Assembly (NCBI GenBank): GCA_025059805.1
Contig: JANXDG010000083.1
Coordinates: 1 to 34,112, forward strand
Length of the DNA: 34,112 bases
Direction of reading: 5' to 3'
DNA from: Endomicrobiia bacterium
GTDB taxonomy: Bacteria; Elusimicrobiota; Endomicrobiia; DTEH01
Part shown: piece after piece, positions 21,779 through 33,429 of the stretch
Position numbering within the stretch: position 1 is the first letter of the stretch
How the letters are laid out: each line of letters starts with the position of its first letter
Position numbers and translations under genes: made by a program
The notes under the pieces: model-generated
What the model was told of the DNA's origin: nothing
Seen by the model: the letters and a program-made list of their open reading frames with translations, nothing else
The model's database searches: none

Positions 21779-21801
21779 GCCGACGCGGGGTCGGTTTACG
21801 G
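21779..21801 (+). repeat. REP-like GC-rich hairpin repeat, copy A (orphan)
   Basis: gccgacgcggggtcggtttacgg directly after the trpB2 stop; stem CCGAC/GTCGG with 5-nt loop GCGGG; matches copies B and C. Confidence 0.75.
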
Positions 21802-21823
21802 ATGTAAAATCAAGTAAATTTTT

Positions 21824-25062: not shown

Positions 25063-26722
25063 ACTTAAACCAATACTTGAAATTGCGAAAGATGCCGGAA
25101 TTTTACCGTCAGAGATAGAATTGTATGGCGACTACAAAGCTAAAGTAAAACTTGAAATTTTAGAAAGGATAAAAAATAATCCTCAAGCAAAATATATTGA
25201 TGTTACTGCAATAACACCTACGCCTCTTGGTGAAGGAAAAACTGTCACAACAATTGGTCTCTCGTTAGGCCTTGCAAAAGTTGGTAAAAAAGTTTTCACT
25301 TGTATTCGTCAACCATCTTTAGGACCTGTGTTTGGTATAAAAGGTGGTGCTGCTGGAGGTGGATATTCACAGGTGCTTCCTATGGAAGATTTTAACTTAC
25401 ATCTCACAGGTGATGTCCATGCTGTATCAATAGCACATAATCTTTGTATGGCGTTTTTAAACAATGCTATATACCGAAGACAAATACCAATTGATCCTAA
25501 AAAAATTTTATGGAGGTATGTCGTTGATGTATCTGATAGATTTTTACGCAGTATCATAATAGGTGTAGGTCCTGGTGCTGATGATGGTATACCTCTAATG
25601 AGCGGTTTTGATATTTCGGTTGCGTCAGAACTTATGGCTATACTTGCCTTAACAACTTCGCTTAAAGACCTGCGGGAAAGGTTATCCCGTGTAGTTGTTG
25701 CGTTCACTTATGATAACAAACCTGTCACTGCAGAAGACCTTAAAGTTGCAGGTTCTATGACAGTTTTACTTAAAGATGCTATTAAACCAAATCTTCTACA
25801 AACAACAGAATACACACCTGTCTTTGTTCATACAGGACCGTTTGCAAACATTGCTCACGGCAACAACTCCATCATTGCAGACCTTATCGCCACCAAACTT
25901 GCTGAATATGTTGTCACAGAAAGTGGTTTTGGAGCTGACTGTGGCATGGAAAAATTTATGAATATAAAATGTAGATACTCAGGACTTAAACCTGACTGTG
26001 TAGTAATGGTATGTACAGTTCGTGCATTAAAAATGCATTCAGGAAAAGTAAATGTTGTTGCAGGAAAGCCATTACCTGAAGAGTTAACAAAAGAAAATCT
26101 ACAGCTTCTTGAAGAAGGGTTATGCAATTTAGAAAAACAAATTGAAAATGCTTTACTTCATGGTGTTCCTGTAGTTGTTGCTATAAATAGATTTACCACA
26201 GATACTGATAAAGAGTTAGCTTTAATACAGAAACGAGCAAAAGAGTTTGGCGCTGAAGATGCGGTTGTATCTGAAGTATGGGCAAAAGGTGGTGAAGGTG
26301 GGAAAGATCTTGCTTATGCAGTAATCAAAGCTGCAAATAAACCAAACAACTTCAAATTTTTATATCCACTTGATATTCCTATTAAGGATAAAATTCATAT
26401 TATTGCAACAAAAATTTATGGTGCAAAAGATGTGCAGTACTCTCCACTTGCTGAAGAAAAAATAAAATTATTTACACAGCTTGGCTGGGATAAACTACCT
26501 ATATGTATGGCAAAAACACATCTTTCTTTGTCTCATGAACCAACTTGGAAAGGTAGACCAAAAGATTTCACTCTTCCAATACGAGATATTCGTGCATCTG
26601 TTGGTGCAGGATTTCTTTATCCTTTATGTGGTGAGATGCGGACAATGCCAGGGTTACCCTCAGTACCTGCTGGAACAAAAATTGATATTGACGAAGAAGG
26701 AAAAATTGTAGGTATATTTTAA
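25019..26722 (+). CDS. fhs: Formate--tetrahydrofolate ligase
   Basis: [79 protein letters not shown]. Confidence 0.98.
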
Positions 26723-26728
26723 CCCTTA

Positions 26729-26754
26729 TCCGACGCGGGTTCGGTTTTCGGTTG
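26729..26754 (+). repeat. REP-like repeat, copy B (left of transposase)
   Basis: tccgacgcgggttcggttttcggttg; matches copy A and the reverse complement of copy C. Confidence 0.78.
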
Positions 26755-26772
26755 AAATTTCAGTATAAAACT

Positions 26773-27423
26773 ATGCCGGTGCGAAAATTTTTAGCAAAAG
26801 ATAAACTATATCACGTACTTACAAAAAGTATCGCGGGTTACCGTATATTTAACGAACCAACGGACTTTGAAAGAATGCTGGATATTCTGGAGTATTACAA
26901 TACAACTAAACCTCCATGCAAGTTCTCAAAATATCTAACGCTGACAGCAGAAGAAAAACTAAACCTTTCTGTTCCTCAATGCAATAAAATTGTAAAAATT
27001 ATCGCCTACTGTATAATGCCTACGCATATTCACCTTCTTGTTTCACCACTTGAAGATAATATACTTTCGCGATATATGAATATTGTACTGCGAAGTTATA
27101 CAGGATATTTCAATTATAAGTACAAAAGGAAGGGACCATTGTGGGAAAGCAGGTTTAAAGCCGTTATAGTAAATAGCAATGAACAACTACTTCACTTAAC
27201 GCGATATATTCACCTAAATCCGACAACGGCGTATCTTGTAGAAAGACCAGAGGACTGGGAATTTTCCTCATATAACGAATATATTGGTAAACCAGCAACA
27301 AGAAAACTGACAGACTTCTTAGAGTATTTGGATATAAATCCAACATCCTATACTGAATTTGTAAACGATAGGATAAATTACCAAAGAGAGCTTGCAAAGA
27401 TAAAAGATATGATACTGGAATAA
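26773..27423 (+). CDS. REP-associated tyrosine transposase (RAYT, Y1_Tnp/IS200-like superfamily)
   Basis: HUH motif MPTHIHLLVSP; YKRKGPLWESRFKAVIV; LTRYIHLNPTTAYLVERPEDWEFSSYNEYIG. ATG at 26773 is a more plausible start than the TTG at 26752, which lies in the repeat. Confidence 0.9.
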   Translation: MPVRKFLAKDKLYHVLTKSIAGYRIFNEPTDFERMLDILEYYNTTKPPCKFSKYLTLTAEEKLNLSVPQCNKIVKIIAYCIMPTHIHLLVSPLEDNILSRYMNIVLRSYTGYFNYKYKRKGPLWESRFKAVIVNSNEQLLHLTRYIHLNPTTAYLVERPEDWEFSSYNEYIGKPATRKLTDFLEYLDINPTSYTEFVNDRINYQRELAKIKDMILE

Positions 27424-27440
27424 ATAACCTATTGAAAAAC

Positions 27441-27466
27441 CAAGGAGAAACCGACCCCGCGTCGGA
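27441..27466 (-). repeat. REP-like repeat, copy C (right of transposase, inverted)
   Basis: caaggagaaaccgaccccgcgtcgga; reverse complement contains CCGACGCGGGGTCGGTTT, identical to the core of copy A. Confidence 0.78.
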
Positions 27467-27478
27467 AAGATAAGGAAG

Positions 27479-28396
27479 ATGAAAGGAAGAGTGTTTTCAG
27501 TAAATGTTGGAAAACAAAAGGGTGAAGTTAAACATCCAGAAGACAAAATTATTTTAATTGAAAATTACGGCGTTAAAGGTGACTGCCATGCACAACAAAA
27601 TTCAACAAAACAAGTAAGTTTACTTTCGTGGGAACGGATGAACGAAGAATTTTTTTGTTTACGAAAAGAAGTAGATATTAAACCAGGTGTGTTTGCTGAA
27701 AATATAACAACTGAAAATATTGATTTGCGTTTGTTAAAAATTGGTGATAAACTTAAAATAAACGAAGTTTTGTTAGAAATCTCAGAAATTGGCAAAAAAT
27801 GTCACAACTACTGCGAAATTTATAAAAAAGTAGGAAAATGTCTAATGCCAAAGGAAGGTATTTTTGCAAGAGTCATCAAAGGTGGTGAAGTTAAAAAAGG
27901 TGATACAATAAAAGTAATTCCTAAAATAGATGTTGGAGTGATAACTATAAGCGATAGCTGTTATTTAGGCAAAAGAGAGGATGAGAGTGGTAAATATATA
28001 AAAGAAAAATCACTACAGTTAGGTTGGAATGTGATAAACTACACTATAATTCCCGACGATATAGAAAAAATAAAGGAAAAACTTATAGAATTTTGTTCAT
28101 CTTGTGATTTAATTTTAACAACAGGAGGAACTGGTATCACACAAAGGGACCTCACACCAGAAGCAACAAAACAAGTGATAGAAAAAGAGCTACCCGGAAT
28201 AAATGAAATTTTACGAATCAAAGGTTTTGAAAAAACACCGTCTTCAGTAATTTCAAGAGGTCTTGCAGGAATTAGAAATAAAACATTAATAATAAACCTA
28301 CCTGGCAGCTTAAATGCTACAAAAGATGCGTTTGAAGTTTTACCAGATGTAATACTACATGCAATTGAGATGTTAAGAGAGTTTCCACATAATTAA
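27479..28396 (+). CDS. MOSC domain fused to MogA/MoaB-type molybdopterin adenylyltransferase
   Basis: N-terminal MOSC-like (GVKGDCHAQQNSTKQVSLLSWE, PGVFAENITTENIDLRLLKIGDKLKI); C-terminal VGVITISDSCYLGKREDESG, LTTGGTGITQRDLTPEAT, LIINLPGSLNATKDAFE. Confidence 0.92.
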   Translation: MKGRVFSVNVGKQKGEVKHPEDKIILIENYGVKGDCHAQQNSTKQVSLLSWERMNEEFFCLRKEVDIKPGVFAENITTENIDLRLLKIGDKLKINEVLLEISEIGKKCHNYCEIYKKVGKCLMPKEGIFARVIKGGEVKKGDTIKVIPKIDVGVITISDSCYLGKREDESGKYIKEKSLQLGWNVINYTIIPDDIEKIKEKLIEFCSSCDLILTTGGTGITQRDLTPEATKQVIEKELPGINEILRIKGFEKTPSSVISRGLAGIRNKTLIINLPGSLNATKDAFEVLPDVILHAIEMLREFPHN

Positions 28397-30705: not shown

Positions 30706-33397
30706 AATAGACGGTAAACAAATAATTACACAACAAGAAAAAACAATACTTGAAGTTGCACAAGAAAACGGTATTGAGATACCACATCTATGTAGTGACA
30801 ACAGATTACTGCCATATGGCGCATGTAGGTTATGTATAGTTGAAGTTGAAGGTGAAAAAAAACCTGTTGCTTCGTGTTGCTATCCTGTATATGATGGGAT
30901 GAAAGTTTTTACAAATACCAAAAAAATTCAAGAATTAAGAAAAATAACACTTGAACTTCTTATTTCAGACCATCCACTGGATTGCATAATTTGTGAGAAA
31001 TCTGGCGAGTGTTTACTTGAGAAATATGCATATGAGTACGGAATAAAAGAAGTAAAATTTACAGGTGAAAAAAGCAAAAGAACACAAAAAGATGGTACAC
31101 CATTTATAATTAGAGATTACAACAAATGTATCTTATGTGGTATGTGTGTTAGAGTTTGTAGTGAAATTGTAAGCAGTGACGCTATTGATTATAAAAATCG
31201 TGGATTTAATGTTGAAATAATATCTGGGTTTGATGAACCATTAAAAGATACAGAATGTATCTTTTGTGGAAACTGTATAGAGGTATGTCCTGTAGGTGCG
31301 TTAAGAGAAATCTCTGCTGAAAGAAAAGGAAGAAGTTGGGAATATAAAAAAGTAGAATCTGTTTGTCCTTATTGCGGTGTTGGCTGTGGTGTTGTAGTTT
31401 ATGTAAAAGACAATCAAATAGTAAAAATAAAAGGACAAAAAGACAGTCCAGTCAACAAAGGGTTTTTATGTATTAAAGGTAAATTTGGGTTTGATTATGT
31501 TCATTCTGAATCTCGTCTTAAAACACCTCTTATAAAACAAAATGGGAAATTTATAGAAACTTCTTGGCAGGAAGCTGTTGAAGTTATATATCAAAAACTT
31601 AAATTTTACAAAGAGACCTACGGAGCTGACTCTATCGCAGCAATTGCTTCAGCAAAGTGTACAAACGAAGAAAACTATTTGTTTCAAAAATTTTTCCGTG
31701 TTGTTATAAAAACAAACAATATTGACCATTGTGCACGGTTATGTCATGCACCTTCAGTAGTTGCATTAAACGAAACTTTAGGTTCTGCTGCTATGTCAAA
31801 CTCGCTTGAAGAAATTGAGAAGTATTCAGACTGTATTATAGTTGTAGGAACAAATGTTTCTGAAACACAACCTGTAACTTTTTACAGGATAAAAAAAGCA
31901 AAAAATAGAGGTGCTAAACTTATAGTTATAGATCCTCGCAGGATTGACCTTGCAAAAATTGCTGATGTTTATATTCAACCACGCTACGGAAGCGATATTG
32001 TTGTGTTTAACGCACTTGCAAAAATTATTGTCGATGAAAAACTTTATAATGAAGAATTTATTAGCCTTCAAGTTGAAGGGTTTGATGAGTTCAAACAATA
32101 TATAGAAAAATTTGATTTATCAGAAGTTGAAAAAATTGCAAATGTTAAAATTGAAGATTTAAGGAAAGTTGCACAACTTTACGCAAAATCTACCACAAGT
32201 ATAATTTTGTGGTCTATGGGAATAACACAACATACTACTGGAACAGAAACTGTTTTCGCAATATCCAACTTAGCTTTACTTACAGGACAAGTTGGTAAAA
32301 AAGGTTCAGGTCTTGCACCTTTACGAGGACAAAATAATGTCCAAGGTGCTTGTGATATGGGGTGTCTACCAAGTTTTTATCCTGGATATAATAAAGTGAT
32401 AGATAAAACTACAATAGAAAAATTTGAAACTTTCTGGAATGAAAAAGGTTTACCAGACAAACCAGGTCTTACTATGACAGAAATGTTTGAAAATATAAAC
32501 ACTGGTAAAATAAAAGCTATGTATATTCTTGGTGAAATGCCACTTATAGCTGAACCTGACACATCAAATTTAAGAAAGTCGTTAGAAAAATTAGATTTTC
32601 TTGTTGTACAAGATATATTTTTTACTGAAGTATGTGAATATGCTGATGTTGTATTACCTGCATTGTGCTCTTATGAAAAAGAAGGAACTTTTACTAATAC
32701 AGAACGACGAGTACAAGCTATACAAAAATGTGTTGAAAACAAAACTTTAGCAAAAACTGACTGGGAAATAATACAACTTATAGCAAACAGGTTTGGCTAC
32801 AACTGGAACTACAAAACGGTCTGGGATATACTTGAAGAGATAAACAGCACAGTTGAGATTTATAAAGGAATTACACCGAAAAGATTACTTTCTAAAGAAA
32901 AAATTCAGTGGCCCTGTCCTTCTGAAGACCATCCTGGAACTGAAACTCTACATATAGGAAAGTTTAAACGAGGAAAAGGACTGCTTAAAATTGTAACCTA
33001 CAAACCACCAGCGGAACTTCCCGACGAAGAATATCCGTTTTTACTCACTACAGGGCGAATCCTTCAAGAATATCATTCAAGAACAATGACATCAAAAGTT
33101 AAAGGATTAAAAGAAATCGTAAAAGAGCCGTATTTTATTATGAACAAAACTGATGCTGAAAAATTAAAAATTAACGAATCAGATACTGTAAAAATTGTCT
33201 CACGCAGAGGAACTGTAGTATTGAAAGCAAAACTAAGCAACAACATTCAGCAAGGAACAATTTTTATACCATTTCATTTCTACGCCAATATCCTAACACA
33301 TTCAGAACTTGACAAGTATTCAAAAACACCTGAGTTTAAAGTTTGCGCCTGTAGGCTAATCCCGGCAAATTCCGACGCTGGGACGGAATCAGGTTGA
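30683..33397 (+). CDS. fdhA: Formate dehydrogenase catalytic subunit with NuoG-like N-terminal Fe-S domains (Cys-type)
   Basis: N-terminal [2Fe-2S] [37 protein letters not shown], two 4Fe-4S motifs, [67 protein letters not shown]. Confidence 0.94.
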
Positions 33398-33429
33398 TTT
33401 TTCAACCTATTCCCAAACCCGCATCGGGA
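33370..33429. repeat. BIME-like palindrome: diverged REP-like copies D (+) and E (-) around a perfect 7-bp hairpin
   Basis: D: ttccgacgctgggacggaatcaggttga; loop tttt; E: tcaacctattcccaaacccgcatcggga. aggttga/tcaacct (33391-33408) is a perfect inverted repeat. Confidence 0.65.

Follow-up and report, generated by a model that had tools for sequence, protein, structure and literature searches.

The locus between fhs and the MOSC-MogA gene appears to be a REPtron-like unit, that is, a Y1/HuH transposase gene bracketed by cognate REP hairpins that have spread through intergenic DNA, and we put the probability of this reading at about 0.88. It draws on what is directly observed: the bracketing, the copies elsewhere in the genome, the cognate-linked distribution of the hairpins, the agreement between apex loops and the protein tree, an insert-free site, and the intact motifs and fold of the protein. 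The window, i.e. the whole stretch of 34,112 nucleotides that was analysed, is contig C64 of a 1.64-Mb assembly (G000).

The transposase gene occupies 26773–27423 on the + strand, from the ATG at 26773 to the stop at 27423, and codes for 216 amino acids. That it is of Y1 type, as the sequence-only reading had it, is borne out by a match to Pfam Y1_Tnp (E 1.1e-8). The HuH metal-binding motif reads T-H-I-H (codons for H-I-H at 27025–27033, +), and the presumed catalytic tyrosine of YIHLNP lies at 27205–27207 (+); T83, H84, H86, Y144 and N148 are all invariant in 64 homologues. Y---NP is the signature of class 2 TnpA-Y1 proteins (PMC6006769). The AlphaFold2 model (pLDDT 93.9) has as its best PDB fold match 4er8, the E. 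coli TnpA-REP bound to its REP hairpin (E 2e-7; 17% identity in the fold alignment), and both catalytic motifs and fold are intact. The C-terminus, checked by Pfam only, has no HTH match, and against the NCBIfam equivalog NF047646 REP_Tyr_transpos the protein scores 62.6 bits, under the 80-bit cut-off. G000 holds three Y1 genes, and the other two, on contigs C52 and C51, encode proteins 61% and ∼30% identical to that of the window, the C51 protein being of a distant DHFH type. The locus thus combines what defines a RAYT in the broad sense, namely a HuH/Y1 core with Y---NP, flanking hairpin repeats that recur in the genome, and a low gene copy number with diverged paralogues. The system is a RAYT by this broad definition and works like a REPtron, while failing the canonical GTAG-REP test.

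The repeat, REP1, is 34 bp long and consists of CCGACGCGGGGTCGG followed by WWTCNGGTTGAAWWTTCAA, so that conservation extends 19 bases beyond the hairpin. The window contains the pattern CCGACGCGGGKTCGGTTT at exactly three places (21780–21797 +, 26730–26747 + and 27448–27465 –), with none expected from 100 shuffles of the window. Two of these occurrences bracket the transposase gene in opposite orientation, as had been read from the sequence, and differ at 5 of 26 positions. The upstream copy B (26730–26763, +) has AACC at 26722–26725 and directs its GGTTGA tail at the gene; the downstream copy C (27432–27465, –) is inverted relative to B, with its tail likewise directed at the gene. The third is a solo copy A (21780–21813, +) between a TrpB-like gene and a macro-domain-like gene, beginning five bases past the stop of the former, and a composite inverted doublet lies at 33372–33428, which agrees with the claim of related copies elsewhere in the window. 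The proposed hairpin, CCGAC-GCGGG-GTCGG, holds for A and C, and copy B has a mismatch at one pair of its stem (GTTCGG). The doublet, recognised by sequence, by a REP2 match and by covariance-model matches, consists of a degenerate REP1 and an inverted REP2 (CCCAAACCCGCATCGGG) joined by the linker GGTTGATTTTTCAACC. As single-stranded DNA it folds much better than shuffles (z = –3.9), as does an inverted REP1 doublet on another contig (G000:C7:966-1021; z = –6.9), and copy B alone folds no better than shuffles. As a side observation, the degenerate REP at 33370–33397 overlaps the 3′ end of a formate-dehydrogenase-like gene, whose final residues (NSDAGTESG) it encodes; the orthologue in genome G004 ends without them.

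Genome-wide counts rest on pattern searches and covariance-model searches. With up to 3 mismatches, G000 gave 22 matches, and the reversed-pattern control gave none; a covariance model built from 22 copies finds ∼23 true REP1 copies. They are mostly intergenic, and many lie within a few bases of stop codons. The anticipated abundance of further intergenic copies was thus found, and the expectation of frequent inverted pairs was borne out in part: inverted doublets are present, some of them composites of two REP families, and solos form the majority. The doublets have the same end arrangement as the gene-bearing unit, minus the gene. In the congener G001 the covariance model finds one perfect copy and one degenerate composite copy, the latter being a doublet on contig C151 of the same kind as that at 33372–33428 of the window. 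G001 carries these copies despite having no window-type RAYT; it holds a related RAYT, and its assembly is 88% complete. In G002–G004, which belong to the same genus or family and have no close full-length homologue, no REP1 copy was found, so the repeat is not equally common in relatives without the gene. One small contig of G000 has five REP1 copies or remnants in ∼3 kb (C24:141-3338), two of them with near-identical left flanks; the sequence suggests that this cluster may be a local gene duplication carrying REP1.

The window protein belongs to a clade marked by a THuH motif, the loci of which were collected by searches of whole genomes and GTDB contigs. The motif is present in 85 of the 88 clade proteins analysed, together with Y[IVL]HLNP in nearly all, and an SH-aLRT of 99.7 separates the clade from the other Y1 proteins of related genomes that were sampled; the proteins closest to it in the same genomes have NHFH together with YIHLNP. 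Among 80 named loci 43 are from Omnitrophota and 8 from Elusimicrobiota, the rest being from Berkelbacteria, Nitrospirota, Planctomycetota and others. A near-identical 17-mer hairpin stands on both sides of the gene at 67/88 loci, and about a quarter of clade loci have no matching pair. Pairs with the same stem were found at 60/85 loci, versus 9% for swapped flanks. Among 18 other Y1 genes used as a control, such pairs occur in two only, both of the DHFH/EHFH type (∼160 aa) with GTAG-type REPs; since several of these genes gave no hairpin to score, the control is small. Inverted orientation of the pair was considered as a rule for the clade and rejected, since pairs compared in both orientations were inverted at 34 loci and direct at 33.

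What these hairpins share is not the canonical foot. Across 134 elements, the left foot carries GT[AG]G in 3%, versus 5–13% in control positions, and is thus not enriched in it; the mark of a canonical GTAG REP, GT[AG]G 5′ of the hairpin foot, is absent. AACC 15–18 bases left of the hairpin centre is present in 52% of them (about 9% in the control) and GGTT 12–14 bases right of it in 43% (about 4%). Stems vary among lineages, and apex loops are mostly of three types, CGTA, GCGGG and CCGG. Loop type follows the protein tree, requiring 25 changes against a shuffled mean of 33.5 (0/200 shuffles as low), and proteins with GCGGG-type hairpins, that of the window among them, fall mainly in one supported group. 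In CGTA-type hairpins the letters GTAG do occur, at the apex and not at the foot.

That each TnpA-REP gene is tied to a REP family of its own is a known concept (PMC6006769), and the hairpins that we checked genome-wide are essentially confined to genomes with the cognate gene or one closely related to it. The hairpin of G024 occurs at 8 places in that genome with one weak 3-mismatch match elsewhere, and that of G058 at 6 places in G058 only. The G049 hairpin is limited to its two flanking copies, so not every hairpin family has spread; near variants of it are found in G034, which has related proteins. Within the loci retrieved, extra copies of the hairpin belonging to a locus are ∼12 times commoner per kb than copies of the hairpins of other loci, with an extra copy at only 14 of 50 loci. 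Copy numbers are low across the systems, from 2 to about 23; classic REPs number more than 100 copies. The densest local cluster seen was at a locus of a Thermodesulfobacteriota MAG (L085, JAJSAC010000046.1), where its own hairpin TTCCACCTACGAAGTGGAA is repeated six more times in 8.6 kb.

The same pairing can be followed within G000. The gene on C52 is a second RAYT of the THuH clade, bracketed by a different hairpin, CCCAATGCGGGTTTGGG; this REP2 family has 6 good copies in G000, 15 in G001 and 0–1 in G002–G004. One REP2-like match in G004 (C27:7707) was considered as a shared insertion near formate dehydrogenase and rejected, as it sits in coding sequence. G001 carries a syntenic orthologue of the C52 gene, which is therefore stable. 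The third Y1 gene, on C51, has GTAG-footed REPs, so that an ordinary GTAG-REP system stands beside REP1 in one genome and offers a useful contrast. Its family, GGTAGACAACG...CGTTG (L049; C51:12622-13254, C52:11207-11275 and C77:46003-46128), surrounds the distant Y1 gene, has several copies as inverted pairs, and is absent from G001–G004.

In the sister genus represented by G004, fhs adjoins MOSC-MogA without an insert, the two being about two dozen bases apart. This junction agrees with the proposal that the unit was inserted between these genes: the window differs from G004 by a precise 0.7 kb, comprising the gene and its two REPs, with no target duplication evident. It should be noted that the insert-free site belongs to another genus and cannot tell gain from loss. 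MOSC and MogA-like domains are fused in one gene both in the window (27479–28396) and in G004; the two halves match separate places in G003.

So precise a difference, the tails pointing inward at both ends and the doublets that share this arrangement without the gene could also fit an autonomous insertion sequence of the IS200/IS605 type, moving whole with the hairpins as its ends and leaving solos and doublets as internally deleted, MITE-like remains. We consider this improbable. Elements of that type are characterised by Y---Q and near-identical gene copies, whereas the window protein has YIHLNP and G000 holds no second near-identical copy, only the two diverged Y1 genes; moreover, no tnpB adjoins the transposase gene, the C52 gene has kept its place relative to the G001 orthologue, and half of the clade has its hairpins as direct, not inverted, pairs. 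Still less probable is a regulatory role, in which the hairpins would be retained as terminators of transcription or as structures at mRNA ends and would surround the gene by chance: their closeness to stop codons and a GC-rich stem with TTT after it do give them a terminator-like look, but we reject this explanation because the stem runs into WWTCNGGTTGA, with no T run, and because the G000 copies lie with and against their flanking genes about equally often, to which may be added a distribution that tracks the cognate gene and the lack of any Rfam match in the window.

For the REPtron-like unit, homology and distribution are the grounds on which we infer binding, cleavage, mobilisation and the identity of the bases that the enzyme reads. 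The enzyme or its ancestors would have spread the REP hairpins as intergenic solo REPs and inverted doublets. It probably recognises the hairpin in single-stranded DNA, for example on the lagging strand, probably uses the tyrosine of YIHLNP to cut close to the hairpin foot, and probably rejoins the element elsewhere. Recognition would proceed via the stem peculiar to the lineage, via the apex loop and via the AACC/GGTT feet, and not via a canonical GT[AG]G guide.

Hairpin recognition has so far been explained through the GTAG guide, and most of the known REP/RAYT systems come from Proteobacteria, Cyanobacteria and Bacteroidetes. With the E. coli REPtron (TnpA-REP/RAYT with REP/BIME; 4er8) the window system shares a Y1/HuH core with Y---NP and a single gene bracketed by hairpins that recur intergenically as solos and inverted doublets. 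It differs in having AACC/GGTT feet and typical apex loops in place of a GT[AG]G foot, a THuH instead of a DHLH motif, extra C-terminal helices, and about 23 copies rather than hundreds. The inverted doublets, such as that on C7 and that at 33372–33428, recall REPINs (PMC3116915); here, however, most copies are solos and certain doublets combine two REP families. The proposal of a lineage-specific REP/RAYT system stands as regards its many, cognate-linked copies, and needs amending in two respects, as the system is non-canonical (no GT[AG]G foot, a score below the NCBIfam cut-off) and is not a one-off.

The Y[IV]HLNP motif is shared with subclass 2.1, also known as RAYT group 1 or TIRYT (PMC6006769, PMC3733652). 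Di Nocera et al. (2013) described TIRYT genes with inverted repeats, some of them self-complementary (PMC3733652), and Quentin et al. (2018) reported no REP-like sequences for subclass 2.1 (PMC6006769). That subclass is defined by NH[VYF]H, an HTH C-terminal domain and the lack of REP-like hairpins, a combination not found here: the clade has THuH and not NHuH, the window protein is 216 aa long, and the proteins form a separate clade with hairpins present. Most TIRs of TIRYT genes share GGGGWSAS (PMC3733652), which was not seen here. The hairpins of subclass 2.6 (RAYT group 5) and class 3 are also atypical, lacking GT[AG]G and recurring at other sites of the genome (PMC6006769), and in this they resemble those that flank the clade's genes. 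Going by their descriptions, subclass 2.6 is set apart by its occurrence mainly in Bacteroidetes, NH[LIV]H, YIH[QN]NP and ‘weaker’ structures, and class 3 by Y----Q and a CnGA foot. As the comparison is with published descriptions, the clade may touch subclass 2.1/TIRYT, 2.6 or class 3.

We give even odds to the broader proposal that the THuH clade is an undescribed REP/RAYT class, found across Omnitrophota, Elusimicrobiota and other, mostly uncultured phyla, in which the enzymes would recognise apex loop and AACC/GGTT feet in place of a GT[AG]G guide, the stems having diverged together with the proteins. A literature search returned nothing relevant on RAYT in Elusimicrobia or REP in Omnitrophota, which is weak evidence of absence. 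Relative to the literature, the differences lie in the foot, in the THuH motif and in the phyla, the gene–REP tie itself being already established. The clade extends REP-like repeats to candidate phyla, and its dozens of protein/hairpin pairs, with natural variation of stem, loop and foot, form a data set on how single-strand transposases choose their hairpins. At one clade locus, L045 (G058:C47), the last part of the RAYT coding sequence is a GGAACGGG-type repeat (EPEPVPGTG), and GTTCC/GGAAC hairpins lie a short way upstream; a REP has possibly inserted into the end of the RAYT gene itself.
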